DNA of 64,000 nt from the NCBI GenBank assembly GCA_030615175.1, contig JAUWZX010000001.1, positions 652,044 through 716,043 on the forward strand. The letters are read 5' to 3'. This DNA comes from Candidatus Parvarchaeota archaeon. Lineage in GTDB: Archaea; Nanobdellota; Nanobdellia; WJKC01. The notes beneath the pieces were generated by a model. That model was not told where the DNA came from and made no database searches. It saw only the letters and a list, made by a program, of their open reading frames with translations. Shown here piece after piece: positions 11,571 through 30,814 of the stretch; positions within the stretch are counted from its first letter, which is position 1; every line of letters starts with the position of its first letter. The translations under genes and the position numbers were made by a program.

Positions 11571-13079
11571 ATGAAAATAGTTTACATTGGAGCAGGCTCA
11601 TTCCGCTTCTCAATATTCTTATTCTCAGACATCTGCCGGGCAGTAGAGATGTCACCCTTAGAAACCTGGTTAGTGGACATTGATAAAACATCATTAGAAC
11701 TCATGACAGGAGTGCTTAAGAATATGGCTGGAAAAGCAAAACGCAGAAACGGGATTGAAATTAAAGTACACTCCACAACAGACAGGATTAAAGCATTAGA
11801 AAACGCTGATGTAATATATAAGAGCATTTCAATTGGTATTCAGGCGCCTGAATGGTTTGATATTTACCTGCCATTAAAATTTGGAATCCCGCAGAATTCA
11901 GGCGGCGGATCAGGAGACTTACTTAGGAGTTTAAGAACTGACCCTGTAGTAGCTGACATAGTCCGCGACGTGAAGAAGTATTGCCCTAAAGCACTCTTAC
12001 TCAATTACACGAATCCAATGTGCACCGGCGTAATGACGGCGAAAACCACTGCACCTGAAGTTCAATTCATTGGCTTATGTCATGAATTATTTGGCGGAAT
12101 GAAAACACTAAATAAATGGTATAATAAGAAAATGAATGGTAAAGTAATGGATTGGAGGGATTTTGACATTGAATACGCTGGAATCAATCACTTCACTTTC
12201 TTAACAAAATTTGAATACCAGGGCAAAGACTTGTATCCGGAATTAAGAGCGCAGGCTCACCAATTAGTTCTTAAAAAATTCAATAAGAGAGGTTATAATT
12301 TTCACTTGCTGGAAAAGTATGGATACTTCCCTTACGCTGGCAGCCGGCACTTGGCAGAAGCCCTGCCTGATTATGATAATTACTTTAATTATAAAATACA
12401 GAGTCCTTACTGGAAGTTTCCGGTAATCCGCGACGTCTCAGGACTTAGCAGGATGAGGAAGTGGTTTTATAAATTCTATAAAATGATTGATAAAGGATTA
12501 ATCGTGCCAAAACCAAGGGATACCAGGGAAAAAGCAATAAACATGACTTTAGACTGGATGGATAGTTTTACAAACGACAATAATACTAATCACGTGGTAA
12601 ACATTCCTAACAAGCATCCGGGATTAGGAGTCATAGTCCCTCAACTGCCAGAGGACTGTATTGTTGAAGTGCCGGCTTACTTTAAAAACGGTGAAATCAC
12701 TCCAATAAAAAATATTGACCTGCCAGAAGAAGTAGCATGTCTTGTCCGCCCGCATGCAGAACAACAGAGGTGCAAGGTTAATGCCTCGCTTGGCAACAGT
12801 CTGGAATCATGCATAACTGCCATGCAGCATGACCTGATGGCTAATTGGATTGAAGATGATGATAAAATTGAATATTTAACCAAACTCATGTTATTCTATG
12901 AAAAACAATGGCTGCCAGAGGAGTGGAGTGAATGGATTCCAACCAGTGCAGAGCTTAAGGAATCAAAGTGGTGGGTGTCGCCAAAAGAACTCTCTAGAAA
13001 AGGAAACGCTTACCTGAAAATAAAATTCCCGCCAGACGAGAGATTAAGGAAAAAAGCATTCTTTTGGGATTATATATGA
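11571..13079 (+). CDS. Glycoside hydrolase family 4 enzyme
   Basis: GH4 enzymes cleave glycosides by an NAD- and metal-dependent redox mechanism. The NAD site is IGAGSFR (residues 6-12), with VDID closing the Rossmann strand. NYTNPM (145-150), GLCHE (168-172; C170 and H171 are metal ligands) and AGINHF (203-208) are family hallmarks. At 502 residues it is of full length. Which sugar it acts on (alpha-galactoside, alpha-glucuronide or phospho-glycoside) cannot be told. Its stop overlaps the sulfatase start (ATGA), so the two are co-translated. Confidence 0.92.
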   Translation: MKIVYIGAGSFRFSIFLFSDICRAVEMSPLETWLVDIDKTSLELMTGVLKNMAGKAKRRNGIEIKVHSTTDRIKALENADVIYKSISIGIQAPEWFDIYLPLKFGIPQNSGGGSGDLLRSLRTDPVVADIVRDVKKYCPKALLLNYTNPMCTGVMTAKTTAPEVQFIGLCHELFGGMKTLNKWYNKKMNGKVMDWRDFDIEYAGINHFTFLTKFEYQGKDLYPELRAQAHQLVLKKFNKRGYNFHLLEKYGYFPYAGSRHLAEALPDYDNYFNYKIQSPYWKFPVIRDVSGLSRMRKWFYKFYKMIDKGLIVPKPRDTREKAINMTLDWMDSFTNDNNTNHVVNIPNKHPGLGVIVPQLPEDCIVEVPAYFKNGEITPIKNIDLPEEVACLVRPHAEQQRCKVNASLGNSLESCITAMQHDLMANWIEDDDKIEYLTKLMLFYEKQWLPEEWSEWIPTSAELKESKWWVSPKELSRKGNAYLKIKFPPDERLRKKAFFWDYI

Positions 13080-14494
13080 ATACCATTGTTATTCTTGCTG
13101 ACAGTTTCAGAGCAGACCATCTCGGGTGTTATGCAAAATATATAGATGAATCCAAGAACAAGGGTCTTGGTCCTACACTGCCTGTGAAGACGCCCAGTCT
13201 TGACAGACTAGCGAAAGAAAGCTCATTATTTTATCATGCTTATCCGGAAAGCATGCCTTCAATTCCTGTGAGGACTTCATTATTCACAGGGAGATATACT
13301 TTTCCTTTCAGGAGGATTCTTAAGAAGAAAGATATACTCTTGTCAGACGTTCTTGGAAGGAATGGTGTGGAAACAGGATTAGTTACAGACTTGTGGGTTT
13401 TGTTCCGGTTTAATTATGATAGGGGTTTTAAATCAAAGAAGTTCATTCAGGGCCAGAAATATGATTTTGCAAAGACTTCCAGCTGCTATAAATACAAAAA
13501 GAAAGAGGGAGGAACTCTGGAGAAATTTTTATTGAAATTAAACGGCTTAAAAGAGTTTGGAAGAGAATTAACTAATAAACCTACCATAAACTGGCTGAAA
13601 GGGCTTGTAAAGGATGGTATATTCAAGCGCGAGCAGGATACTTTTGTTGCAAGGACGATGAGGGCAGCAGAATCCTATCTTGACAATCATAAAGGAGAAG
13701 ATAATCTGTTCCTGTGGGTTGACAGTCTTGACCCTCATGAACCGTGGAATCCTCCGCCTCCTTTTAACAGAATGTACAACAAGGATTATGATGGTATGGA
13801 CATCATTTCTCCTGAGCAAGGACTTATTAAAAATTATTTAAGCAGGGAAGAATTATTTAACACGCGCTCCCTTTACGCAGGTGAAATAAGTCTTGTTGAC
13901 AAATACGTCGGCAAGTTCGTGACATACTTAAAAGAGGAAGGGTTGCTGGACAACTCACTTCTCATATTCCTTTCCGACCACGGCGAACCCCTTGGCGAGA
14001 AACATGGAGAACTTCATGAACGAATAATAAAGAAAGCAAGACCATGGCTGTATCAGGAATTAATAAGGATTCCTCTTATGATAAGGCATCCTGAAGGTTA
14101 TGGTGCGGGGGAAAGCATTGGCAGCATGGTACAGACTTGTGACATAATGCCTACAATACTTGATTACATGAATGTGGAAGGGCCTTCAGTGATGGACGGG
14201 GAAAGCCTTATCCCGCTAATTAAGGGAGAGAAGGATAAAATCAGGGATTATGCTTACATTGGGAAATTCGGTCAGTCCTGGAGTATCAGGACGCCGGAAT
14301 ACAGTTTCCACAGGTGGATGAAAGACCCTCCTGAATTATATAACCTGACTAATGACTTATATGAAAAAAATAATATAATCAGGGAAGAGTTCGGCATTGC
14401 AAAAAAACTTGATTCCGAGCTTGAAGGTTTCATAAAAGAATTATGGAAAAAGCATTCTCATGAAAAGAAAAGACAAAGGTTCGGTTTATGGTGA
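13076..14494 (+). CDS. Sulfatase / alkaline-phosphatase-superfamily hydrolase (Ser-type site)
   Basis: The start MNTIVILADSFRADHLGCY carries the metal-binding aspartates of sulfatases. The active-site block is S62-I-P64-V-R66 with T71-G72, matching the (C/S)xPxR....TG pattern whose Ser or Cys is converted to formylglycine. LSDHGEPLGEKH supplies the second metal set. There is no signal peptide, so a cytosolic role is likely. The start at 13076 overlaps the GH4 stop. It probably removes sulfate from a sugar, though a phosphoester substrate is possible if Ser62 is unmodified. Confidence 0.87.
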   Translation: MNTIVILADSFRADHLGCYAKYIDESKNKGLGPTLPVKTPSLDRLAKESSLFYHAYPESMPSIPVRTSLFTGRYTFPFRRILKKKDILLSDVLGRNGVETGLVTDLWVLFRFNYDRGFKSKKFIQGQKYDFAKTSSCYKYKKKEGGTLEKFLLKLNGLKEFGRELTNKPTINWLKGLVKDGIFKREQDTFVARTMRAAESYLDNHKGEDNLFLWVDSLDPHEPWNPPPPFNRMYNKDYDGMDIISPEQGLIKNYLSREELFNTRSLYAGEISLVDKYVGKFVTYLKEEGLLDNSLLIFLSDHGEPLGEKHGELHERIIKKARPWLYQELIRIPLMIRHPEGYGAGESIGSMVQTCDIMPTILDYMNVEGPSVMDGESLIPLIKGEKDKIRDYAYIGKFGQSWSIRTPEYSFHRWMKDPPELYNLTNDLYEKNNIIREEFGIAKKLDSELEGFIKELWKKHSHEKKRQRFGLW

Positions 14495-14499
14495 TAACC

Positions 14500-16971
14500 T
14501 TATTTGTTTTTCAAACATTTTTTCATCACAGTATAAATGCCAAAAGGCTCTATTTCTAATTCATCTGCCTGCTCTTCATCTTCCTCTAACAGGTTAACAA
14601 GAGAAAACCCTTCAGGCAAAGAGATTTTTCTTTCATTATTAGTATAATTGAACAGTCTGTACACAATTGAATCCGAATCCTCTGCTTTTTTCACAGCAGA
14701 AACCATAACTCCGTCTACTCCAAAATCCAGGAAACAGTTTTCCAGGGGCAGTTTCCCATCCTGGGAAGATATTCTCTCCGCGTGTATAGGATTATTAAAT
14801 TCCTCTCCTGTCTTGTAAGAATCACTTTTTGAAATACAGTACTCAAACACGTACTCTCCTTTCATCATGCCTTTTGGTGTTGGTAATCCCAAATCCGGGC
14901 TCATACACTTCTCTCCAACAACCCTCATACTCCTCAATAACCCCATCTCCAGCACGCCGTGCTCCAGTTTATGCTCAACAACACCCTTGTTCGCAACAGT
15001 AACGCCGCCCACTCTCACATAATTCACTGCTGGAAAAATCTGCCCTTCCCTTGTCTCCAGCTCGCCATAAGGAATCTGCCTGTAGAAATCACCTTCCACG
15101 CCCTCAAAGCATGCATTAATTTTTGAAAGACTTCCATCATGAACTATCCTTGTCTTAAAATCTATTCTTCCAAAATCCCTTAAAACAACTTCCTGCACCA
15201 CCTCGTCCCCGCCAATCATGCCTTTTATAACTATTTTCCCGGAACCAGATTCGCACTCCACACTTGACAAACCCTCAACTCTTTTTCTTTTCTTATCATA
15301 AAAATACCCGCCGCCCCTCTTCAATTCATCCAATGAAAGATAACTATTATACACTTTACTGGTGCTCTTGTCAGTTATTTCCACTGCTCCATTTTCCCCA
15401 ACTTCAACTTTAAAGTCATTGTTTTCCATCAACCCTTTAACTTCACTATTTCCTTCCACTACCCTGACAGTAGTATACCCTATTGCAGGGATTTCTGGTG
15501 AAACAAACTCAACAATATTACCATCTCTTTGATAACTAATCTCTTCATCATTAACGTCAACCAGACTGAAATCACCATCAAAATCAACCTCCACTTTTAC
15601 AATACCCTTCCTGCTCCAACCTAACTGGTTAAAAAGAACAATGCCTTCCCCGTCACAATCAATGCTGCCAGCAATGAAACCGCCAGCTCTTTCAATAATG
15701 CTATCAAGAATAGAGTCGCACCTTCCATATCTCTCCATTGCCCTGTCATAAACCTCGTCAACATGACATCCGCATATCACGTCATGGAACTGGTTGACCA
15801 TGATTAATTCAAGAGAATTATCCAAACACTCTTTATCATATTCCTTTCCAAGAATGAAGGCTATTGTCCCCATTGTCTCAGCCAGTTTATACTTATTCTC
15901 CATCTCCCGGTTCTTCGTCTTGATATCCATTCTGGACGTGTACACGCCTGAAAGAGCAGGATTCAAGTCCCCGCTTAATATTGGAAGCCTGTTTCCTGCA
16001 TCTTTAAAATACTCCTCTATGCTTCCGTGAACAATATCATAACCCTTGTTTTTCAATGCCTTCATAATATTCTTCATTCTAGGGTGGGGGCGGCTGAAAT
16101 CAGCACCAAGCGGCAGGAGCACTGGCATGGACTCAAGCATGCCTAAACTCTTCTCAAGATGCATTTTTTCCGTAACCTTTGGCAGAAACCTGCCTGCACG
16201 CAGGAATTTATCCAGAACCTTTCTTAAACCCGGACGGTCATCAAGCACGCTCTCTGGTATTTTTTCAGGATAACGCAGATGCGCAATACCATACCCTGCT
16301 TTAATGAAATTGAAGATAACCTTATCCTCATTCAAACCCTTCCAGTAAAAATTTTCAGGGGTGCTCTCATGAACTCCTCTCCTGCCAACATAATAATCAA
16401 TACCTGATTTCTTCAATATCTGGGGAAGATTATTTGAGTGCCCGAAACTGTCAATATTCCAGCCAACTTTCACGTCCTTGCCAAATATCTTCCTTATCCT
16501 CTTCTTTCCAACAAGGACCTGCCTCACAAGGCTTTCACCGCAGGGGATATTCAAATCAGGCTGCACAAACATGCCTCCTACCGGCTCTACTCTCCCTTCA
16601 TCAACAAGTTTTTTTAAAAGCGTGAACTCAGCTTCCCTTCTCGGCAGGTGTGAAAGATTGTTATTGTTTATTATGTAATCCAACTCTTCTTTGGGCGGGT
16701 CATCCCTGTAATTGAGAAACAAGTTCCTGATAAATTCACTAAGATTCACTGGCTTCTCTCTTTCACCCTTAACGTATTCTTGAGACATTAAAGCATTATA
16801 AGCAAACAATGGCTGGTCCAGCACGAAATGCCTGTCAGGCTCTTTGTAAAGGGTGACAATAACATCCCTCATGATTGAAGAAGTGATTCTTGAGTAGCCT
16901 CCTTCCCATGTCTTAAGCCAGTCATGGTCCAGGTGCGAGTGCTCTGCCAGGAAGGCTTTTTTCTTTGGCAT
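14500..16971 (-). CDS. GH38 alpha-mannosidase (copy 1)
   Basis: Class II alpha-mannosidase: HSHLDHDW near the N-terminus gives the zinc ligands, and WNIDSFGHS contains the catalytic Asp nucleophile (about residue 174 counted from this start). The C-terminal half matches the beta-sandwich domains of the family, including HDVICGCHVDEV. No signal peptide is seen. An upstream ATG at 16992 exists, but a TATA box centred near 16998 places transcription start near 16972, so the ATG at 16971 (MPKKK) is preferred. It converges with the sulfatase gene. A paralogue is encoded at 43235-45700. Confidence 0.94.
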   Translation of the reverse strand: MPKKKAFLAEHSHLDHDWLKTWEGGYSRITSSIMRDVIVTLYKEPDRHFVLDQPLFAYNALMSQEYVKGEREKPVNLSEFIRNLFLNYRDDPPKEELDYIINNNNLSHLPRREAEFTLLKKLVDEGRVEPVGGMFVQPDLNIPCGESLVRQVLVGKKRIRKIFGKDVKVGWNIDSFGHSNNLPQILKKSGIDYYVGRRGVHESTPENFYWKGLNEDKVIFNFIKAGYGIAHLRYPEKIPESVLDDRPGLRKVLDKFLRAGRFLPKVTEKMHLEKSLGMLESMPVLLPLGADFSRPHPRMKNIMKALKNKGYDIVHGSIEEYFKDAGNRLPILSGDLNPALSGVYTSRMDIKTKNREMENKYKLAETMGTIAFILGKEYDKECLDNSLELIMVNQFHDVICGCHVDEVYDRAMERYGRCDSILDSIIERAGGFIAGSIDCDGEGIVLFNQLGWSRKGIVKVEVDFDGDFSLVDVNDEEISYQRDGNIVEFVSPEIPAIGYTTVRVVEGNSEVKGLMENNDFKVEVGENGAVEITDKSTSKVYNSYLSLDELKRGGGYFYDKKRKRVEGLSSVECESGSGKIVIKGMIGGDEVVQEVVLRDFGRIDFKTRIVHDGSLSKINACFEGVEGDFYRQIPYGELETREGQIFPAVNYVRVGGVTVANKGVVEHKLEHGVLEMGLLRSMRVVGEKCMSPDLGLPTPKGMMKGEYVFEYCISKSDSYKTGEEFNNPIHAERISSQDGKLPLENCFLDFGVDGVMVSAVKKAEDSDSIVYRLFNYTNNERKISLPEGFSLVNLLEEDEEQADELEIEPFGIYTVMKKCLKNK

Positions 16972-17036
16972 AAAAAATTGATAAATCAGCATAATATAAA
17001 AGTTTATAATTTTGAGGAATACTAAAAGAGTCAGAA

Positions 17037-19430
17037 ATGAAAGCAGTAATAATTGATAAATTAAAAGGCTTGGATGACTGCTTATTCACTGAACCTGTTT
17101 TAATACCAAAACCAAAAGAGGTTCATAAATTAAGTAATCATGCGTACTCACTAACACCTGAATCAACAATTAGTCACGTTAATATTGAAGAAAGCAATGA
17201 CTTGGAAGGCTTATTAGATGCTGATAATGAGGAAGCATATAATTTAGAAGTTAAGGATGAAAGAGTAAGGATTTACTCTAATCATGAGAAAGGACTGTAT
17301 TATGGAATGCAGACTTTAATCCAGTTAATGAAGAATACGCGTTTAATTCCTGAAATAAGAATAAGGGATGCGCCTGACTTTAAAGTCAGGGGAGTGGCGC
17401 AGGACATATCACGAGGACAGGTTTTCACTATTGAAAACGCTAAGAGGTACATCAAGGTTTTAAGCCATTATAAGATGAACACGTACTGCCTCTACCTTGA
17501 AGACATGTTCGCTCACCCGAAACACCCTTTAATAGGCAGTAACCGCGGGGCACTGACAGTAGAGGAAGTAAAGGAATTAGATGAGTATGCAAGAAAACAT
17601 TACATTGAATTAATACCTATTTTCGAATGTTTCGGGCATGCAGATAACATATTAACTCATAAGGAATACGCGCATTTAGGCGAGTTCCCTGGAGCTCAAT
17701 GCTTTGATGCTTCAAACCCTGAGTATTATTCATTCATTAATGATTATATTTCATTATTAAGTGAAACGTTCTCCACTGACTGCTTTCATATAGGGTGTGA
17801 TGAGAGTTTTGATTTTGGCAGGCTGCGAACCAGAGGCTTGGTTAAGGAAAAAGGCAGGAGCACAGCATTAACTGAGGTGTATGAGAGGATATATGAAATC
17901 ACTAAAAGGAATGGTAATAAACACATCATAATGTATGATGATGTATTAAGACTGGATAAGGGGATTCAAAGAAAATTGAATAAGGACATAATCTTAATGT
18001 ACTGGAATTATGCTTCTAAAAAAAGGCATCCAAGTTTAAAGAAGTATTTAAACGCAGGCTTTAAAGTCATAGTCAGTCCATCAATGCTTAATTTACAGAG
18101 AAATTTTCCTGACAATAAGAATTCAAGCAGTAACATAATAAATTTTGTGAAAACAGCTTATGATTACAGGGATAGGGGCTGCCTGGGCGTGTTGACTTCC
18201 ACATGGCAGGGTCAGAGGTTTCATTCACTGCGGGAAAACGAGGTATTCGGGGCAGTTCTCACTGCAGGGGTTTCATGGAGTACTAAAGGATTTGATTATG
18301 AAACATTTAAACAGGATTACGGGCACTTATTTTACGGTATTAAGAAAGAAAAATTAAAGTCATTTAATGAATTATTCACTCTTTTAAGTTCATCTGCATC
18401 AAAGTATTATTTAAAATTCCTTAATATACCATTAACTACAATACACCCTCCGTTTGGCACTTACATGTTTAAACATCCTTTAATTAGGAAGAATGATTTT
18501 GAAGAATTAGGTGATTTAGGCGTTAAGTGTTTAAGGTTATATGATGAACTTAAGCCAGGCGTGTTATTTGAACGTGAAAACTTTGAGTGCATGGAATTCG
18601 GCGCTGAACTGGCAAAGTACTTGGGGAATAATAAGAAAGAGGATGCCAGTTACATTAGGGATAGATATGAGGAATTATGGTTGAGAGCTGCTAAGAGGCC
18701 TGGTCTGGATGAAATACTGAAACGCTTTGACACGTTAATCAGGCAGTATGATGAGGAAGCCGTTAAAGATCCTTATCTGCCATCTGAATGGATTTGGGCT
18801 AGAGAGAAGACCTGCCCTGTTAAACCGCGTTATTTCAGGAAGGTAATTGAGATTGATGGGCCGGTAAAGAAAGCGGTTATTCAGGGGGTTGCCTGCAATC
18901 AAATGAATGTTTATGTAAACAATCATTATGTTGGGGATGTTTTTTCAAGATTCTCATTATCCGTTCTCCCTGTTAAGAACAGGGTTAAGGCGTGGGATGT
19001 GACAAGATATTTGAATGAGGGTAAGAATGTTATTGCTATCAAAGCATTTAATTATGAGGGATTTAAGGGTGCTGTTAATCTTTATGGTCAAATCCAATTA
19101 AGCGGTGATTCATTAATTAAGGAAATAAAAACTGACAGGACGTGGGTTACTCAGAAGAAGATGATATATAATAGTGATGATTGGAGGCAGTTAAGTTTTA
19201 ATGATGATGACTGGAGAACAGCTAGATCTTACGGTCGCCCGCCAGAGTATAATGGCGACATCTATACGCCTGATTTATTAAGCGGAGAAGTTTCAGATAC
19301 TCAGGATTATTTTGGAGTGCAGGGGCATTTTTATCATTTATTAAGGAATACTGCAGGCAGTTTCCTGACTCGTTTAATAAAGCCATTTATTCCAAAAATC
19401 ATTAAGAGTTTAAAGCCTCGCATTAACTGA
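17037..19430 (+). CDS. GH20-like beta-N-acetylhexosaminidase
   Basis: An N-terminal GH20b-like domain (LPxP-type start, EKGLYYGMQTLIQL) precedes a TIM barrel with H251-I-G-C-D255-E256, the Asp-Glu pair of GH20 substrate-assisted catalysis, and GVAQDISRGQVFTIEN at the first strand. A C-terminal beta-sandwich (about 590-760) resembles the sugar-binding domain of GH2-type enzymes (VYVNNHYVGDV, WDVTRYLNEGKNVIAIKA). It probably removes terminal GlcNAc/GalNAc. No signal peptide is visible. It ends 17 bp before the copied tRNA-Leu end. Confidence 0.87.
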   Translation: MKAVIIDKLKGLDDCLFTEPVLIPKPKEVHKLSNHAYSLTPESTISHVNIEESNDLEGLLDADNEEAYNLEVKDERVRIYSNHEKGLYYGMQTLIQLMKNTRLIPEIRIRDAPDFKVRGVAQDISRGQVFTIENAKRYIKVLSHYKMNTYCLYLEDMFAHPKHPLIGSNRGALTVEEVKELDEYARKHYIELIPIFECFGHADNILTHKEYAHLGEFPGAQCFDASNPEYYSFINDYISLLSETFSTDCFHIGCDESFDFGRLRTRGLVKEKGRSTALTEVYERIYEITKRNGNKHIIMYDDVLRLDKGIQRKLNKDIILMYWNYASKKRHPSLKKYLNAGFKVIVSPSMLNLQRNFPDNKNSSSNIINFVKTAYDYRDRGCLGVLTSTWQGQRFHSLRENEVFGAVLTAGVSWSTKGFDYETFKQDYGHLFYGIKKEKLKSFNELFTLLSSSASKYYLKFLNIPLTTIHPPFGTYMFKHPLIRKNDFEELGDLGVKCLRLYDELKPGVLFERENFECMEFGAELAKYLGNNKKEDASYIRDRYEELWLRAAKRPGLDEILKRFDTLIRQYDEEAVKDPYLPSEWIWAREKTCPVKPRYFRKVIEIDGPVKKAVIQGVACNQMNVYVNNHYVGDVFSRFSLSVLPVKNRVKAWDVTRYLNEGKNVIAIKAFNYEGFKGAVNLYGQIQLSGDSLIKEIKTDRTWVTQKKMIYNSDDWRQLSFNDDDWRTARSYGRPPEYNGDIYTPDLLSGEVSDTQDYFGVQGHFYHLLRNTAGSFLTRLIKPFIPKIIKSLKPRIN

Positions 19431-19491: not shown

Positions 19492-20226
19492 TCACTTTTC
19501 ATCTTCCGTTCTCTTTGCTTCATCAACCTTTCTTGCTAAAAGACTCGTAAACATTATATATTCTAATGCCTTGTCAAGATTATCAAGTGTTATATCACTA
19601 TGAGCTTTGGGGTCACGTACACCCATAACAGCACCAGCAAAAAGACTTTGAAATCCTTGTTGCTCCGTTTTTTCAGTATCTGTTCTTAATTCATTAATTT
19701 TTAATTTTGGGTGAGTAACACTAAAGACCTTACGCATTAACTTCGCCCCATCTAATTCCTTTCCACTTTTTTTGTCCTTAGGCCTGCCAGTCTTTTCCTT
19801 AACTAAATTAATGATTCGCTTACTTGAAGCAAAGATGGCCTCAGCATAATGACCATTTCGAAATAACTTTTCTGAAACTTTTTTAATTTCAGGATGGATA
19901 TCCAGTATTTTATAAAGTTCATATGGATTGCTTGCTTTAATAACTTCAACCTTTCCACTCTTACTCCAAGGATATGGTTTTCCGCATTTATGACAAAATT
20001 TTGGAACGGGCACAGAGTAAACAGAAGCAACCCCACCCCTAACCCAAAGTTTTCCTTTGATTCCTTCTTGGCAGTTAGGGCATCTATGAATTGTTTCTGC
20101 ACCACATTCCTCACAAAAATTTCTGCGTAGTCTTGGATTCGATATATGATACTGTGTAATCTTGTGACCATTCAGACATACTTGCATAGTATCCTGAAAT
20201 CTTCCATCATGTCCATAATGAATCAT
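19492..20226 (-). CDS. Zinc-finger-HEPN fusion (DUF2321-like plus TIGR02391/Ymh), likely toxin
   Basis: The N-terminal 100 residues hold several zinc knuckles (FCEECG, CPNCQ, FCHKCGKPYPW) resembling DUF2321. The C-terminal 130 residues match the TIGR02391/Ymh family (NGHYAEAIFASSKRI, LDGAKLMRKVFS, QGFQSLFAGAVMGVRDPKAH), a HEPN-type fold. R204-D-P-K-A-H209 is the RxxxxH motif of HEPN RNases. It overlaps the upstream RHH gene by ATGA. I infer an RNase toxin or defence effector; the zinc part may recognise nucleic acid. Confidence 0.82.
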   Translation of the reverse strand: MIHYGHDGRFQDTMQVCLNGHKITQYHISNPRLRRNFCEECGAETIHRCPNCQEGIKGKLWVRGGVASVYSVPVPKFCHKCGKPYPWSKSGKVEVIKASNPYELYKILDIHPEIKKVSEKLFRNGHYAEAIFASSKRIINLVKEKTGRPKDKKSGKELDGAKLMRKVFSVTHPKLKINELRTDTEKTEQQGFQSLFAGAVMGVRDPKAHSDITLDNLDKALEYIMFTSLLARKVDEAKRTEDEK

Positions 20227-20876
20227 ACGTCACACGCCCTTCGTGCGGCCTTTACTGTTGGCGCCCTTCCCTCAGGAGCATTAATTGAATCACTCATTGA
20301 CTTTACAATTTGTTTAACTTTTTCAATTTCCTTTAATCTACTGGCGAATTTTTCTTTGCCCCTAGTTATGGCTTTATTGAGCTCCATTAAAATGATTTTT
20401 GGGTGTGATAACTCTGAGAGATTAATATATTCAAGGTTGACAGTTTCTTCAACCCTATCCATCCAAACATACCAGCCCTCAAGTCCTCTTGGAAATAAGA
20501 AGAAATTAAATATAACTTCATGACTAACACCTTCCTCATCTTCAAAAGAGTCAGACGTTTGCCCTATTTTTACTGATGCATCAAACTTTTTAAGAATAGG
20601 AGCTATCAAGTCAAATAATTCTTTATACTTCTTGTGAATACTTTCTTCAGTGATTGTTTTTTCAATGTCCATCGTAATGCTTTTTAAGACATCCTCAGTT
20701 AATTTAGAAATATTGATATTTTGGCTGCGAGCTCTTTCAATTACTCTTTTATCAACACTCAAGTTCAACTTTTGCTTTTCAGGTCTTTCGCCCATGAATA
20801 AAGGGAAATTGAATCTATTTAAATACTTTTTGATTTTGTCAAATTTATTTAAATAGTTTTCGATACTTTTCGGCAC
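20223..20876 (-). CDS. Ribbon-helix-helix (CcdA-like) protein, likely antitoxin/autoregulator
   Basis: Residues about 35-68 (KLNLSVDKRVIERARSQNIN, then SKLTEDVLKSI) are a CcdA-like ribbon-helix-helix DNA-binding domain. The remaining 150 residues form an unfamiliar alpha/beta domain that may bind the partner. The start is GTG, supported by an AAGGAG sequence six bases before it. Upstream are a perfect 21-bp palindrome and two half-palindromes, probable operators. The downstream HEPN gene overlaps by 4 bp. Confidence 0.78.
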   Translation of the reverse strand: MPKSIENYLNKFDKIKKYLNRFNFPLFMGERPEKQKLNLSVDKRVIERARSQNINISKLTEDVLKSITMDIEKTITEESIHKKYKELFDLIAPILKKFDASVKIGQTSDSFEDEEGVSHEVIFNFFLFPRGLEGWYVWMDRVEETVNLEYINLSELSHPKIILMELNKAITRGKEKFASRLKEIEKVKQIVKSMSDSINAPEGRAPTVKAARRACDV

Positions 20877-21196: not shown

Positions 21197-21982
21197 CTAC
21201 AAGAACATTCTCTCTGGATCATCACTGAACTTGCCCTTACTGTTAATAAAGGCTTCACGCTCCTTCTTTAAACTGTAAAAAGCAAAATACTTTCTTTTCT
21301 TATCCTCAAGAAAACCAGTTAATTCATCCTTCTTATCTGGAAATGAATTAATAATGCATGCTCTAAGCGGCTTCTCAATGAACTGGGGGTCAACTCTTTC
21401 AACATTAATGCATGATTCCAAATCCATTATTAACTTGGCAGAGTAATCATAGAAAGAGTAATACAATTTGACAGCTTCATGATTCATCCCGCCTAACTTC
21501 TTAAGCATGTTATTAAATAAAATAGCATAATAATTATTATCTATTTCATAATCCAATTCATTTTTTACTTCATTAAAGAGTTTATAATTCTTCTCCTCTA
21601 AATCAAAAAACTCTAATTTACCGCTGCGTTGCTGTTTAATCAAAAAATTTAAAAGAGTGTCATAAACAGAACATAATTCATCAAAAAGCAGAGACCTTAA
21701 ACAAACATTAAGATGCCTGTCACTAGTGTAATCAGTCAATGACTCATTAATGTAATCCCTGATTGAATCATCACTCATTATTTCAAAAAAGTTCTTACTA
21801 TCATTCCAGTTAACTAATCTTCTCATGCCAGCTATAAAACCCATCTTCCAGTAAAGCTGGTGAACGTCAGAGTAAATCTGATTAATTTCCTTGAAAGAAT
21901 CAGAATCATTCTTAACGCACTTCCTGACCTCCCTAATCAGCCGCCGGTAACCCCTAATGCATCTTTTTAATTCCTTAAACAT
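21197..21982 (-). CDS. Hypothetical alpha-helical protein (paralogue of 30005-30814)
   Basis: 261 residues, helical, no signal peptide or recognised domain. It is clearly related to the protein encoded at 30005-30814: both begin with a short basic helix, carry a W-containing helix near residue 58, and share I..SFP.K..EL...LE.....Y..FYS near the end. The divergent neighbour is the proteasome-like operon, with about 125 bp of AT-rich promoter region between. A link to that operon is possible but unproven. Confidence 0.7.
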   Translation of the reverse strand: MFKELKRCIRGYRRLIREVRKCVKNDSDSFKEINQIYSDVHQLYWKMGFIAGMRRLVNWNDSKNFFEIMSDDSIRDYINESLTDYTSDRHLNVCLRSLLFDELCSVYDTLLNFLIKQQRSGKLEFFDLEEKNYKLFNEVKNELDYEIDNNYYAILFNNMLKKLGGMNHEAVKLYYSFYDYSAKLIMDLESCINVERVDPQFIEKPLRACIINSFPDKKDELTGFLEDKKRKYFAFYSLKKEREAFINSKGKFSDDPERMFL

Positions 21983-22107
21983 TAATAATTAATAGTGCAT
22001 CATAATATTTTAAGATTTATGCTGCTAAAAGCACCTGAATGAGGTACTATAAACATTATGTTATAACAGATAAATATTTTAAAGGAATTATAGGATAAAA
22101 TTCCGTG

Positions 22108-24135
22108 ATGCCTGAAAACATTATTAAATCAGATTTTATAGAAAGAAAGATTAATAGTTTGAAGAAGAAAAAATTCAAGAATGAGAACTCAAGAAAAACG
22201 GGTACAGTAATTTTATCCATACCTGCATTAGATGTAAAAAAAAATGACAGGGCGATTATCTCAGCAACTGATACAATGATATCCGGCAGTTTTGGTCCGC
22301 AGGACTATAATTACCGGAAAGTATATTTCTTAAACCCGTACACAAGCATTCTGACAACAGGCGATTGCATGTACATAGATTACATAGCAGTCACGGCAAA
22401 TTACTTATCAAGGTATATTCAATCAATAAATCAGTTTGAAAAAGGAATCAATAATCCTGAAGCAAGCCCTAAACTGGATGACTTCATAAGATGGATTCAT
22501 GAACTCATGTCATACGAAGAGGATAAAGGAGGAGTATTCATATTAAATGGTCAGTACAGGAATGGTAAAATGGACACGCTAAAAATAGACTGGGATGCAT
22601 TAATTGACTACATGGAAACTGACATGGAAGGACAGAATCAGGGAGAAGTCGGTGATTACCCGGTAAAGTACCCGGCAAGTGGTTGCGGGCAGGGGGAAGC
22701 ACTGCCAGTGCTGAATTACAACTTCGCATTAGAGGATAATGCTTACAATAAGATACCGCAAAAAAATGTAAGCAAGGCAAAAGCAAAATTAACAGCCCTG
22801 CTGTCCGTTTTTAGCGCTTTTAACTCGCAGCAGCATGCAACGGCTTTCGTTGGAGGGCATGGAGTGCTCAGTTCAATGGAGCATGGTAAGAGCTCGTCAC
22901 CAGACATAGGTTACTCAATACATGATGGCAGAAAATTATCATCACTAAAGGGATTGCAATTATTCCTGCAGGAAAGATACACAAGAGGTAATAGAACAGG
23001 GGATGTGGAGGAATTATTTGAATTAAAAGCTGATGATGATACGATAGATAAGAAAATTGAAGAAAAAATAGAGGAAACAATACTGGAATATGAAAATCAC
23101 AAGCACAAGTATGATATCAGGGACACGCTAATCTCTGTTGGCAGTTATAATAAAAACCTGGCAATATCAAGATGGAAGAAGCCTGATGAGATAAGAATAA
23201 ATGATGACGCAAGCGAGAGGACGTTGAAAACACTGAATAACTTGTACAAGAACATTAAAATTGATGAGATTAACCTTGAAGAAATAGATATTGGCACAGA
23301 ACCGCAAACAGAATTGGGGACTGCAATACAATTATATGAAGACGCGGTTGAAGAATTTAATAACATGATAATTGCTTACAAAGCAAAATGCAAGGCAGAC
23401 CCTGACGAAAAGGGATTCTATAAGGGCAAAAAATCATTTGACGGCGTAGTAATACTAAGATACTTATCACCCGCAGAGTTAAAATTCAAAGAGCATATTG
23501 GAGCAGTAGAATTAATTGATAAATCAAAAGCAGGATTCACTTCAATAGCAAGCGACGGGGGATTAATATCAAGGCAGTTAGAAAGGGATTTATACATGAG
23601 TTTCATAAATGAGTTATCAGACCATGAAGAAAGCAATCTTGAATCAATCATAGGTGACGCGTATGAATTCCCAATAAAACAAATTTTCTTTATTGACAGC
23701 GCTAAGTTCGAGAACAGGTACAATGTTGCGGGTTTTGAAGCAATAGGAGTGAAAGTAGGAGAAAATTCATCAGACATAATAAAAATGGACTTGCAGGGAT
23801 TATCAGAACAGGAAGATATTAAAGTAGCAGGACCAGTAAGTAACTGGTATATTGCAGAAGAATACTTAAAAGCACTGCCAAAAAAAGCATTTAATGAAGA
23901 TGTATGTTATCATTCAGGAATCATGGCATTATACACAGCCTTATGCAATAATATTGAAGCGGACGGGGACTTGGAAACAATAAAAAAAGAGAAGAAGATG
24001 ATTCTTGAAGACATGAAAAAGAAAGTAGAGATAGTGCATTTAACGTATCAAAGAGATACTTATAACTCTAAACTGAGTCAGGGAAGAATCAGCAACATCA
24101 TAGGCAACATAATTGGCATTGAAGAGCTGGGGTGA
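22108..24135 (+). CDS. Tandem proteasome-fold (Ntn hydrolase-like) protein
   Basis: 675 residues. Counting from the alternative GTG start at 22105, residues 32-62 run TGTVILSIPAL... DRAIISATDTMISGS, matching the first strands of proteasome beta subunits: a Thr near a would-be N-terminus, an Asp at the D17 place (D56), then RKVYFL (a Lys33-like lysine) and a TTGD turn. Further on, KLTALLSVFSAFN, TAFVGGHG, PDIGYSIHDG and LQLFLQERY follow the later strands. A second weaker copy begins at FDGVVILRYLSPAE, continues with TSIASDGG and ends near the C-terminus. I infer two fused Ntn domains. Catalysis is uncertain because no propeptide glycine precedes the Thr. A TATA box near 22072-22080 supports this start. 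Confidence 0.5.
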   Translation: MPENIIKSDFIERKINSLKKKKFKNENSRKTGTVILSIPALDVKKNDRAIISATDTMISGSFGPQDYNYRKVYFLNPYTSILTTGDCMYIDYIAVTANYLSRYIQSINQFEKGINNPEASPKLDDFIRWIHELMSYEEDKGGVFILNGQYRNGKMDTLKIDWDALIDYMETDMEGQNQGEVGDYPVKYPASGCGQGEALPVLNYNFALEDNAYNKIPQKNVSKAKAKLTALLSVFSAFNSQQHATAFVGGHGVLSSMEHGKSSSPDIGYSIHDGRKLSSLKGLQLFLQERYTRGNRTGDVEELFELKADDDTIDKKIEEKIEETILEYENHKHKYDIRDTLISVGSYNKNLAISRWKKPDEIRINDDASERTLKTLNNLYKNIKIDEINLEEIDIGTEPQTELGTAIQLYEDAVEEFNNMIIAYKAKCKADPDEKGFYKGKKSFDGVVILRYLSPAELKFKEHIGAVELIDKSKAGFTSIASDGGLISRQLERDLYMSFINELSDHEESNLESIIGDAYEFPIKQIFFIDSAKFENRYNVAGFEAIGVKVGENSSDIIKMDLQGLSEQEDIKVAGPVSNWYIAEEYLKALPKKAFNEDVCYHSGIMALYTALCNNIEADGDLETIKKEKKMILEDMKKKVEIVHLTYQRDTYNSKLSQGRISNIIGNIIGIEELG

Positions 24136-24145
24136 TTATTAAATC

Positions 24146-26272
24146 ATGAAACAAGAATTAGAAGACATACTTAATATGGCCAGGAAGAAGCTGAAGGATT
24201 CAATAAGCATATTTGACGAAATACACTCTTATTCAAAATCAAATGGTGAAGATGAAGACCAGGCAAGAGCCTTCGCCTCATACATTATAGAATCTAAAAT
24301 AACTGAATCAGACACGTTATTAAGATTATTTGCAATAATTAATGGTTATAAGAGAGATGACCAGAAAGTTTTTTTCAGGGCAAACAATTGCATTAGTTAC
24401 TTATCAGACGTCCTTGAATTAATTGATTCAACATACCCTGTAATAAAGGAAATACACGGGAACAGGGGAAGAATAATGAATCGGGTAAAAAAAGAAATGA
24501 GTTTAGAAGAATTTAATGATGAAGTATTCAAGGAGTACAAATCATGGAATGAAGTTAATAAAGACATAAATAATTTAGGCAACACTCACACAAAAGTTGC
24601 AGCATTATACATTCTTGACTTCATTAAATTCATGGACTTCTTCGTGGAGAATTATGAAAAAGTAATATTTGATGAATCAGAATTTGAACAAGCAGACGCA
24701 TTGTTTGAATACATAGCGAATACGGTTACTGTGCTGAAAATTAAGAGAGGAGATAAAATGTTTTATAAAAAATACGGTATAGTGCCTAACAAGGATATCA
24801 GGATACAAAAATTAAGGAATATGTTAAGGAATGTGAAAATCACGGGATTCAAAACAGCTAAGAAAACAATTATTGATGATGATGGTTCAAAAATTATTAT
24901 GGATATAGATAATGCATGGGATTTTTTAAAAGATAAACTTATAGGTCGTTACAAGCACTCGCAGAATGAATTCTTTATTTCAGATATTAATCTTGTTCAA
25001 GAAACATTAAGCATTCTTGGAGACAGGACGACAGGACTCAGCAATGAAATAGAACTGAATTTAAAAACGGGAAATAAAAGTATTCTGGAAGATTTTAATG
25101 ATAAATACAGTAAAATAAAGTTAAGCGGGGAAGTAATTGAGGGGGATAATATAATTAACAGCTGGTATTTCGAACTGCACAGTGGTTTATACATGCTGCA
25201 TAAATCCTTATATCACATTTTCCTTGGCAGAGGAGAGGATAGAAGAGGTGACTTTGGATTGCCTGAAATGAATGAAGAGGAAGAAAAGGACAGGATGAAC
25301 AAGGAGTTAATAATCAGATTAGCAAAGAATTATGCAATTACTTCTTTAGATGATTACATTAAAACAAATGAGGTTTTTGACAGGATTACAAGGCAAATGT
25401 TAAATAATGAATTAAGGATACCTGTAGAATTCACTGAGGATAAATTAAAAATAATGATTGAAATACACTCAAAAATTGATGATTACTTAAGGGAATTAAA
25501 AGAAGGTCTTGAAAGCACTGAAGAAACAGAAGAGCCGGGGCAATGCCTGCTTAAACCACTTGTTTGTGCTAATGGTTTATCATTACTCTTATTAACGAAC
25601 ACGGAAACTTATATTGATAGATGGAATGACCTGCTGAATCATGTGGAAGCAAACTTCTCTAAAGAAATTACTTGGGCAACTGCGCAGGGAGCGGAAATGA
25701 CCATAGACACCTTAATAAATAAGGATTACAGAATACCATTAAAGCATAGGGGTATGGAAAAGTTCACTGACTTATTCATAATAAATGAAATCACTTATGA
25801 TACTTCAGATATAACAACAATAACAGGCAATATAGAAGATGGCATAAAAGAGTATGACAGTAAGAAAAGAATATATGACCAGTCAAAAAAGTATATGAAG
25901 AAAATTAAAAAATTATTATACCAGAGACTTTTGAAAACTGAACAGGAAATAAATGATTATTATGACATAGGAATAGAAATACTAAAAGGACTGCTTGAAT
26001 TTCAAGCTAAAATAAATGAAATAGAAGTTCCAATGATTTTAGAGCCGGGAAACCCTAATGAAAGATTTAATAATATTATAGAATGCATTCCAAGCTTGAA
26101 TTATGAGAATGATTATTTAAATGAGTGGAGCGGGCTCTTAGAGTCAGCGGCAAGCATAACTTCTGGGAAAAACTTATTTTATTATAAGGAGAAAATAAAA
26201 GGCATAAAAGCTCCTCTGGCAGGGCAAAAAAAATTAAAATTAAAGTATGCTTACAGGAATAAATTAGATTAA
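24146..26272 (+). CDS. Large alpha-helical protein, partner of the Ntn-like protein
   Basis: 708 residues, charged and almost wholly helical, without signal peptide or membrane helices. I recognise no family. Its start lies 10 bp after the stop of the Ntn-like gene, so the two form an operon and may form a complex. The C-terminus (KAPLAGQKKLKLKYAYRNKLD) is basic. The last codons lie in a 29-bp sequence duplicated just beyond the stop. It may be an adaptor or scaffold, but this is context inference only. Confidence 0.65.
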   Translation: MKQELEDILNMARKKLKDSISIFDEIHSYSKSNGEDEDQARAFASYIIESKITESDTLLRLFAIINGYKRDDQKVFFRANNCISYLSDVLELIDSTYPVIKEIHGNRGRIMNRVKKEMSLEEFNDEVFKEYKSWNEVNKDINNLGNTHTKVAALYILDFIKFMDFFVENYEKVIFDESEFEQADALFEYIANTVTVLKIKRGDKMFYKKYGIVPNKDIRIQKLRNMLRNVKITGFKTAKKTIIDDDGSKIIMDIDNAWDFLKDKLIGRYKHSQNEFFISDINLVQETLSILGDRTTGLSNEIELNLKTGNKSILEDFNDKYSKIKLSGEVIEGDNIINSWYFELHSGLYMLHKSLYHIFLGRGEDRRGDFGLPEMNEEEEKDRMNKELIIRLAKNYAITSLDDYIKTNEVFDRITRQMLNNELRIPVEFTEDKLKIMIEIHSKIDDYLRELKEGLESTEETEEPGQCLLKPLVCANGLSLLLLTNTETYIDRWNDLLNHVEANFSKEITWATAQGAEMTIDTLINKDYRIPLKHRGMEKFTDLFIINEITYDTSDITTITGNIEDGIKEYDSKKRIYDQSKKYMKKIKKLLYQRLLKTEQEINDYYDIGIEILKGLLEFQAKINEIEVPMILEPGNPNERFNNIIECIPSLNYENDYLNEWSGLLESAASITSGKNLFYYKEKIKGIKAPLAGQKKLKLKYAYRNKLD

Positions 26273-26312
26273 TAAGTATACTCACAGGAATAAATTAGAT
26301 TAATAAGTATAC
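26253..26312. repeat. Tandem 29-bp repeat across a stop codon
   Basis: ACAGGAATAAATTAGATTAA-containing units at 26253-26281 and 26284-26312 are identical over 29 bp and spaced 31 bp apart. A decayed third unit (AGAAATTAGATTAATT) begins near 26320. The first unit encodes the last residues and stop of the 708-residue protein; the others are untranslated. Probably a recent slippage duplication. Confidence 0.85.
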
Positions 26313-26342
26313 TTAAAGAAAGAAATTAGATTAATTCTCTTA

Positions 26343-28487: not shown

Positions 28488-28500
28488 GGTTTTTTAAACC
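28488..28500 (-). promoter_or_regulatory. TATA box of the uS13-uS4-uS11-rpoD operon
   Basis: GGTTTAAAAAACC on the minus strand, about 27 bp before the uS13 start. It overlaps the stop codon of the upstream Dph6-fusion gene, so the two transcription units abut. Confidence 0.55.
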
Positions 28501-29948
28501 TTTCGAAAAACAGTCTTCTTAATTAGTAATTTATAAGAACCGCTTCCTTCGTCAATTACTTCAGATTCCTTTATTACAATTTTCTTCTTAAACCCTGGAG
28601 CATTAAGGACTAGTGTTTCGTACTCGCCTCCCTCGCCTGCAACGTTAAAGCCGGCATTATCGCGTAACTTGCATAACTCGTCAGCGTCTTCCTTAGTAAT
28701 CACTCTGCCAAGCCATGATGCATCCAATCCTTCTGCTGCAGTGCGCGTCATTATGAACTCGTAGCCATTGCTTAACAGGATTCTTAACTCTTCTTCCTGA
28801 TTCATATGCCATAAAGGGGAGAAAACTTTAAGCCCTAAATCCATGCAGACCCGCTTAATGCGCGTTACCTGATAATTAGAGTGTAATGCACCGTTAACTA
28901 TGCCTGAAATGCCATAATCCTTCTTTGCTCTCATTAAAGCTTTCTTTAAATCCTTTAATTCTCTTTCTTTAATGCCTTTAGAGTTCTGAAGAATAACGGG
29001 TAATTCAAGCGCTTCTGCTTGTAATTTAACGAGTTCAATGTTAGGCGTGTGGTACATGTAGGAGTCAGGATTCTCTGATTTAATCGTGATTAAACAGGAT
29101 ATTTCAAATCCTTTTTCCTTCATTAAGTCAAGCGCTAAGTTAGAGTCCTTGCCTGAACTGTAAAGCACTCCTAATTTCATTAATGACTTCAAGTACTCGC
29201 TCTTGTACTTAAAACCATTATTTTTGGCAATTCTTAGTATTGCCTTATCAGCATTACTTCCGTACTGCGCTGCCTTCTTGCGCCTTAAAGCAAATTCTTT
29301 GCTAACCCCTAACTTCATTGCTGCTTCCCTGAATACTGCTTTCTTAAGTCCATTCTTAATCTTTAATTTATCAGGAATCCTCATGCCTGTCTTAATTAAT
29401 TCCAAGTCAAGGTAAGGCTTTATTAATTTAATGCCAAAGCACTGAGCAACTGCGTCATCCCTTAATGCTTCCTTGCTTAAGTTAGCAATGCCTTTGTTTA
29501 ATTCACTCTTCAAGTCACTGGCTTTTAAGTGGCGGTGGTAACCGGCGAACACGTCCTCAACACCAATGCCAATTAATACTTGTTTAATCATTAATTTCTC
29601 TGCAGTCCTGAGCGACGGGTAAAGCGTTAATGCAATGCCAGCGTCCACAACGTTAGGACCAATTAGTGACACAACCTCTTTTAAATCCTTCTCCGCCTGT
29701 TTTAAGGAAACATTTGTCACCACTAACTTGAATCCGTACTCCTGAGCAGCCTTTCTTGCCCACGCTAAGTCAGGCGATTCCATGCCAGCTCTAAAATTAG
29801 TTGTGAAACAAGTGAATTCCATGCCTGCCTGCCTGCATAAGTAAGCGAGGAGTAATGAATCAATGCCTCCGGAGAATAAAATGCCGAAGTAACTTCTTGG
29901 CAGATGCTTTAACACTGCTTTTTTAATAACTTCGCTTAACTCATTCAT
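28494..29948 (-). CDS. Asparagine synthetase-like / diphthine-ammonia ligase (Dph6) fusion
   Basis: Two PP-loop ATP-pyrophosphatase domains in one chain. Residues about 1-250 have LFSGGIDSLLLAYL and, further on, RRKKAAQYGS, typical of the asparagine-synthetase C-terminal domain; the glutaminase domain is absent. Residues about 255-484 carry GVLYSSGKDSNLALDLM and EGGEYETLVLNAPGF, hallmarks of Dph6, which amidates diphthine on elongation factor 2 in the last step of diphthamide formation. The front domain might form or channel ammonia or act as a second adenylating unit; this is inference. Confidence 0.9.
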   Translation of the reverse strand: MNELSEVIKKAVLKHLPRSYFGILFSGGIDSLLLAYLCRQAGMEFTCFTTNFRAGMESPDLAWARKAAQEYGFKLVVTNVSLKQAEKDLKEVVSLIGPNVVDAGIALTLYPSLRTAEKLMIKQVLIGIGVEDVFAGYHRHLKASDLKSELNKGIANLSKEALRDDAVAQCFGIKLIKPYLDLELIKTGMRIPDKLKIKNGLKKAVFREAAMKLGVSKEFALRRKKAAQYGSNADKAILRIAKNNGFKYKSEYLKSLMKLGVLYSSGKDSNLALDLMKEKGFEISCLITIKSENPDSYMYHTPNIELVKLQAEALELPVILQNSKGIKERELKDLKKALMRAKKDYGISGIVNGALHSNYQVTRIKRVCMDLGLKVFSPLWHMNQEEELRILLSNGYEFIMTRTAAEGLDASWLGRVITKEDADELCKLRDNAGFNVAGEGGEYETLVLNAPGFKKKIVIKESEVIDEGSGSYKLLIKKTVFRKV

Positions 29949-30004: not shown

Positions 30005-30814
30005 TTAACTGTACAAGTGTTTTACATCATCACTAAGCTGATTATCATCACTAAGCTGATTACTTTCATCATCACTTATTTTAAACCTGTTAAAGCGTTT
30101 ACTAACCATTGCGTTAGATGCGTTAACAAAGCTGTAAAACTTGCAGTAAATCACTTTAAAATTTTCTAATAACTTAATTAATTCACCGCTCTTTTCAGGA
30201 AAACTCTTTTTAATATTGCTTATAAACAAGTCCTCAAGTGAGAGGTCAAATTTGTAATCCTTTAAACCCTTTATGAATTCAGAAAAAAATTCAGTGAAAG
30301 ATTCATATAAATTAAACGCGTTTTCACTGTGCTTATTAAGTTTAATATTAAAGTCGTACAAAATAATGTTCTGCTTGCTAAGAGATGCATTATAATCTAA
30401 CTCATTTAATTTCTGGTAAATCTGTTCATTCTTTTTTAATAATTCATAAAACTTGTTTTTCTTTTCAGGATTCCCATTCATAAGTTCCTGCCTTAAGAAT
30501 TCTCCAAGGTCGCGATTTACACTTGTTAAATAACGAAATAATTTGGTGTTTAAGAAGTATTCAAGACCTGTCTTACCAGCGAATTCATTAAAACCCAAAT
30601 CTTCAAAACCCATTATGCTTAAATATTCATTAGCCATTGTCCAATTAATTAAAGTGCTTGCTTTATCAAACTCCAGTTTCCTATTACAACTTAGGCACTC
30701 ATAACTAAGCTTCTTTAATGAATTTAATTTTTCAGCATCACACTCAACGCTTGCCTGAACCTCTTTAATGAAATTCCTTAAGTCCTTAACACGTTTTTTA
30801 TATTCATTCAGCAT
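30005..30814 (-). CDS. Hypothetical alpha-helical protein (paralogue of 21197-21982)
   Basis: 269 residues, helical, with C..C..  cysteines near residue 40 (YECLSCN). It shares overall layout and the I..SFP.K..EL...LE motif with the 21197-21982 protein. The C-terminus has an in-frame duplication of NQLSDD encoded by two 18-bp repeats, and so is probably flexible. No recognised function. Confidence 0.7.
   Translation of the reverse strand: MLNEYKKRVKDLRNFIKEVQASVECDAEKLNSLKKLSYECLSCNRKLEFDKASTLINWTMANEYLSIMGFEDLGFNEFAGKTGLEYFLNTKLFRYLTSVNRDLGEFLRQELMNGNPEKKNKFYELLKKNEQIYQKLNELDYNASLSKQNIILYDFNIKLNKHSENAFNLYESFTEFFSEFIKGLKDYKFDLSLEDLFISNIKKSFPEKSGELIKLLENFKVIYCKFYSFVNASNAMVSKRFNRFKISDDESNQLSDDNQLSDDVKHLYS
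30027..30062. repeat. Two 18-bp tandem repeats within a coding region
   Basis: TCATCACTAAGCTGATTA occurs twice in direct succession (30027-30044 and 30045-30062), in frame with the minus-strand hypothetical gene, adding six residues to its acidic tail. Confidence 0.9.

Follow-up and report, generated by a model that had tools for sequence, protein, structure and literature searches.

The proteasome-like (Ntn) family extends from the 20S protease to connectase, a monomeric protein ligase of archaea, and for most of its recently discovered members no partner is known. Fuchs, Alva and Lupas (2021; PMC8665760) described 22 uncharacterised proteasome-like families, including WPH, PHI, ACC, PMI-1 to -6, FC1-5, DAH, RPC and others. 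In their survey the triad defines the family, propeptides occur only in beta and HslV, connectase is found only in methanogens, and some families (RPC, DAH, FC4 and connectase) carry added C-terminal domains; neither a tandem form nor a gene-context partner is reported. When we searched the literature ourselves, no relevant report of a tandem or fused proteasome protein came up.

Our analysis of a 64,000 nt stretch of archaeal DNA (hereafter the window) revealed a pair of genes, A and B (Table 1), that is best compared with this family. We consider it probable that A is a divergent, beta-derived proteasome-like Ntn enzyme with the triad Thr33/Asp55/Lys71, for which its own C-terminal region and B are accessory parts and which works beside the 20S proteasome, probably outside the barrel. 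The computed support consists of homology, a conserved triad, the conservation of A and B as a pair, and canonical 20S genes in each of the two genomes that carry this pair. Both reading frames are open, lie on the same strand and are spaced by 10 nt, in agreement with the initial annotation, which had described a two-gene operon of a 675-residue and a 708-residue protein. The start codon of gene A is the ATG at 22108, and an in-frame GTG is found at 22105. The host genome is archaeal (DPANN-like), about 1.0 Mb in size, in 5 contigs and 87% complete. An orphan helical gene flanks the pair on one side and the end of a ribosomal/RNA-polymerase operon (RpoD, S11, S4 and S13, all on the minus strand) on the other. 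In the one genome of the same family as the host the RpoD operon is kept and A-B does not adjoin it, so the pair is a variable addition here. Proteasome ring genes are absent from the vicinity, as also stated initially, and the canonical 20S alpha and beta genes of the host are encoded far from A-B on the same contig.

Table 1. Features of the A-B locus, in window coordinates.
Feature	Coordinates	Strand	Description	Basis
Gene A	22108..24135	+	675 aa; proteasome-beta-like domain and long C-terminal region	ORF; homologue A'
Predicted propeptide	22108..22203	+	residues 1-32, ending ..KTG before Thr33	alignment with canonical betas; cleavage predicted
Domain 1	22204..23007	+	residues 33 to about 300; proteasome beta (Ntn) fold	hhalign, NCBIfam (A'), AF2, Foldseek
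Thr33 (Thr1)	22204..22206	+	predicted N-terminal nucleophile	invariant in 24/24 aligned proteins
Asp55 (Asp17)	22270..22272	+		invariant in 24/24 aligned proteins
Lys71 (Lys33)	22318..22320	+		invariant in 24/24 aligned proteins
Gly85 (Gly47)	22360..22362	+	oxyanion hole	invariant in 24/24 aligned proteins
Cys193	22684..22686	+	at the Ser129 position (GCG for GSG)	hhalign, GCGQGEALP with GSGMPYVLG; column counts
C-terminal region	23305..24132	+	residues 400-675; conserved block 442-492; no detectable Ntn similarity	
Gene B	24146..26272	+	708 aa; soluble; no known family	ORF; homologue B'

By sequence comparison, the N-terminal domain of A (domain 1; residues about 29-300 in the comparison) is a homologue of the proteasome beta subunit, and much more of beta than of alpha. 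When domain 1 of A and of its relative A' (see below) was aligned with 25 betas by hhalign, the score was 66.5 (E 3.5e-9), compared to 23.8 for the best of 150 column-shuffled controls and only 20.9 against the alpha profile. A separate profile comparison of A with betas from the same class gave E 2e-7, and with these values the motif run TGTVILSIP..SATDTMISG..RKVYFL..TTGD, on which the initial annotation had relied, can be accepted as a genuine proteasome-beta signature. In many genomes of the class, the A+A' profile also retrieved beta subunits of the ordinary, single-domain type. A' scored 28.8 bits with the beta HMM and 5.7 bits with the alpha HMM, and an earlier beta HMM gave it 26.1 bits compared to 10.1 for the best of 4000 shuffled sequences; A alone reached only 2-3 bits with beta HMMs, its link to the betas running through A'. 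The sole NCBIfam match of A' was arc_protsome_B (TIGR03634; E 9.1e-4, 18.9 of 224 bits), and in the Pfam scan A' stayed below the cut-off for PF00227 (14.4 of 22.4 bits). For A itself no family was found in the Pfam, PHROGs and NCBIfam scans and nothing in a PDB sequence search. In a PDB profile search beta7 chains came first, weakly (E 0.03). Since the beta score lies far above the alpha score, descent of domain 1 from a beta subunit is suggested, following the reasoning applied to other families in PMC8665760. In an AF2 model of residues 1-328, pLDDT lies at about 80-87 in the core and most of the S1-S11 sandwich and H1-H4 is visible, with low confidence at residues 169-185 and 242-282, and the matches listed by Foldseek for this model were all proteasome subunits (best E 6.9e-9); because the underlying alignment contained 22 betas, the model is compatible with the beta fold but no independent proof of it. 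Conservation between A and A' is clear for domain 1 (none of 400 shuffles as good) and marginal for the remainder of A.

Of all columns in an alignment of 24 proteins (A, A' and 22 canonical betas), just six were invariant, namely T33, D55, K71, G85, G148 and G252. The Thr/Lys/Asp triad that had been predicted for domain 1 was thereby recovered, with T33, D55 and K71 on Thr1, Asp17 and Lys33. The initial annotation had named loss of these residues in homologues as an argument against its proposal; they are conserved in A', where the spacing is exactly 1/17/33, and in the 22 betas. Because the A family has two members only, selection on the triad is poorly measurable. Canonical betas are cleaved at G|T, and the position before Thr1 is Gly in A and Arg in A', in which 43 residues, ending ..ESR, precede Thr1. 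The accessory residues Asp166 and Ser169 are, by column counts in a part of the alignment that is uncertain, not clearly kept in A.

A was searched in 93 and B in 87 related genomes, and either search gave the same single other positive, genome G002, which belongs to the same class. Here A' (L007 9126-11135, E 2.2e-9 to A) and B' (L007 11139-13148, E 1.3e-10 to B) are adjacent, 669 and 669 aa long and 3 nt apart, each about 20% identical to its counterpart. Their neighbours are L35Ae and nucleotidyltransferase genes, so that the surroundings differ from those of A-B and the pair is kept. The co-occurrence that the initial annotation had proposed as a check is thus found, in that both genomes with A or B carry the other gene next to it. 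It is this adjacency in two distant genomes, together with the fact that neither gene was found alone in the genomes searched, that links A to B, and the co-occurrence suggests a joint function. No third A-B pair was detected with the A+A' or B+B' profiles in sets of 371, 378, 378 and 377 genomes, which are overlapping draws from the phylum, the class and relatives. Two further matches were taken as spurious, one in G332 containing three stops and one in G104 lying in a frame that by eye is acetyltransferase-like. Searches with A, A+A', A' and B+B' against genome and viral contigs, and tblastn against phages and plasmids, gave no relatives; a phage or plasmid origin is therefore unsupported. 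Canonical 20S alpha and beta genes are present in the host and in G002, and A would therefore be an extra enzyme and not the proteasome of the cell.

The product of gene B has few Gly and Pro residues and lacks the hydrophobic stretches that membrane spans typically show, and to judge from composition it would be mostly helical. Residues 1-230 are strongly conserved in comparison with B' (0/400 shuffles as good), and the rest marginally. The Pfam, PHROGs and NCBIfam scans returned no family above any cut-off, only a sub-cut-off match to an AAA fragment (E 0.15), and the B profile had no match in the PDB up to E 10; homology to PA28, PA200, AAA+ or PAC proteins was not seen in the PDB profile search or the family scans. 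With no homologue of any kind and no marks of a cap, the earlier suggestion that B is a regulator or cap finds no backing.

The initial annotation had furthermore read two Ntn sandwiches into A, of which the first is upheld as domain 1 and the second is without sequence support. In hhalign residues 400-675 scored 15.6 against beta, with shuffled controls at a median of 13.8 and a best of 23.2, and 16.9 against alpha, which is likewise within the range of the controls. Against domain 1, 278 of 400 shuffles were as good as this second half, i.e. it did worse than the average shuffle. The pattern said to be repeated in the C-terminal half therefore scores like shuffled sequence, and the strings VGGHG and SIHDG lie at the end of domain 1 and not in a second copy. 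We regard it as unlikely that A is a true tandem, in which the C-terminal half would be a second, inactive Ntn sandwich and A a covalent heterodimer resembling a beta/alpha pair, with B regulating it. The order of elements predicted in residues 421-619 (four strands, two helices, strands, two helices) is Ntn-like, and to the eye a hairpin-like 'AGFEAIGVKVGENSSDIIKMDLQG' looks similar to S5-S6 of betas. However, this order comes from an AF2 model of whole A on a two-sequence alignment that was discarded, since at a pLDDT of 28.6 it is meaningless as a fold, an S9/S10 strand pair is not evident, and the scores within shuffle range speak against a second sandwich as well. We give slightly less credence still to the more specific proposal that an active beta-like half and an inactive Ntn half in a single chain form, with helical B, a non-barrel threonine protease or ligase of DPANN archaea. 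The best conserved C-terminal stretch, block 442-492, with the conserved residues R451, L453, P455, E462, H463, D471, G476, F477, S488, R489 and E492, suggests a real functional site of some kind.

A could also be a beta-like scaffold devoid of catalytic activity, with its Ntn domain acting as a module for binding or assembly. Given the Arg at -1 in A', the replacement of Ser129 (by Cys in A) and the accessory Asp166/Ser169 that are not clearly kept, processing and activity may indeed have been lost, and the fast evolution of the C-terminal parts would fit a scaffold. That Thr1, Asp17, Lys33 and Gly47 are nevertheless kept in both A and A' despite about 20% identity makes this reading doubtful in our view, though it deserves consideration. 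We see very little prospect that A is instead a specialised beta subunit joining the 20S core of the host. Its domain is beta-derived and the host does have a canonical 20S, but A carries about 375 extra residues and a private partner gene, and the A-B genes lie far from those of the 20S. Moreover, A and A' both have insertions between H3 and H4, where beta rings contact each other (PMC8665760), and at the C-terminus; by the argument of that study, a normal double beta ring is therefore unlikely.

In the reading that we favour, that of an Ntn enzyme beside the 20S proteasome, domain 1 would fold like a proteasome beta subunit and the 32-residue propeptide would be removed by autocleavage at Gly32-Thr33. 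The freed Thr33, together with Asp55 and Lys71, would then constitute an N-terminal-threonine hydrolase or peptide ligase. As dedicated accessories, the C-terminal region and the B product might bind the substrate, present it, or determine the state of assembly. Such an enzyme would act alongside the canonical 20S without replacing it, and its assembly would probably be found outside the normal alpha/beta barrel.

With the archaeal 20S beta subunit (PF00227, TIGR03634) A shares Thr1/Asp17/Lys33, Gly47 and a predicted propeptide ending TG|T, and S1-S6, H1 and H2 are in register. It differs in length (675 aa compared to about 210), in the insertions between H3 and H4 and at the C-terminus, in the change of Ser129 to Cys, in scores that fall far short of the Pfam and NCBIfam cut-offs and in its conserved partner gene. 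A canonical 20S beta is a single domain of about 200-250 aa with Ser129, Asp166 and Ser169, which A is not; the triad, the oxyanion Gly47 and the significant profile similarity place A in the proteasome-like (Ntn) family. Connectase resembles A in being archaeal and proteasome-like, in its place outside the barrel, which for A is probable, and, in some variants, in a C-terminal addition. Connectase is however marked by the absence of H1 and H2 and by an insertion between S3 and S4, features not found in A, which keeps both helices (88-112 and 123-135 in the domain-1 model, aligned to beta H1/H2). The families of PMC8665760 likewise include divergent members with insertions, some with C-terminal additions, but A stands apart by its likely propeptide, a C-terminal region some 375 residues long and the co-occurring gene B. 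As 22 uncharacterised families had already been catalogued in 2021, the term undescribed system in the initial annotation is too strong; compared with these families by description, A-B is most likely a new, rare variant of the proteasome-like family. With its intact triad and its co-inherited partner gene, this archaeal member of the family, present in cells that also retain an ordinary 20S, offers a well-defined pair of genes for tests of autoprocessing, of the choice of substrate and of assembly outside the barrel.

Some additional observations were made in the window and in G002. A 31-bp tandem repeat in three copies (26243-26335) spans the stop codon of B, its first copy coding for the C-terminus of B. 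The A-B and RpoD operons are flanked by genes for two paralogous proteins of 261 and 269 aa (21197-21982 and 30005-30814, both on the minus strand) that are 27% identical; neither gave anything above cut-off in the Pfam scan, the upstream 261-aa protein had no relative among 36 other genomes, and it was rejected as a relative of B, to which it shows no similarity. In G002 RpoD appears in two pieces (C4:34409-34699 and C3:1-351, the second of which opens C3), which may reflect a break between contigs or a gene that is split. A 484-aa protein (28494-29948, minus strand) combines an asparagine-synthase-like domain with a diphthamide synthase domain, and at 19492-20876 (minus strand) a Hypoth_Ymh/DUF2321 protein adjoins a gene with a CcdA-like antitoxin match. 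Finally, a glycan-degrading gene cluster at 11571-19430 encodes GH4, a sulfatase, a GH38 mannosidase-like protein and a GH20 hexosaminidase, which is unusual in an archaeon with a small genome.
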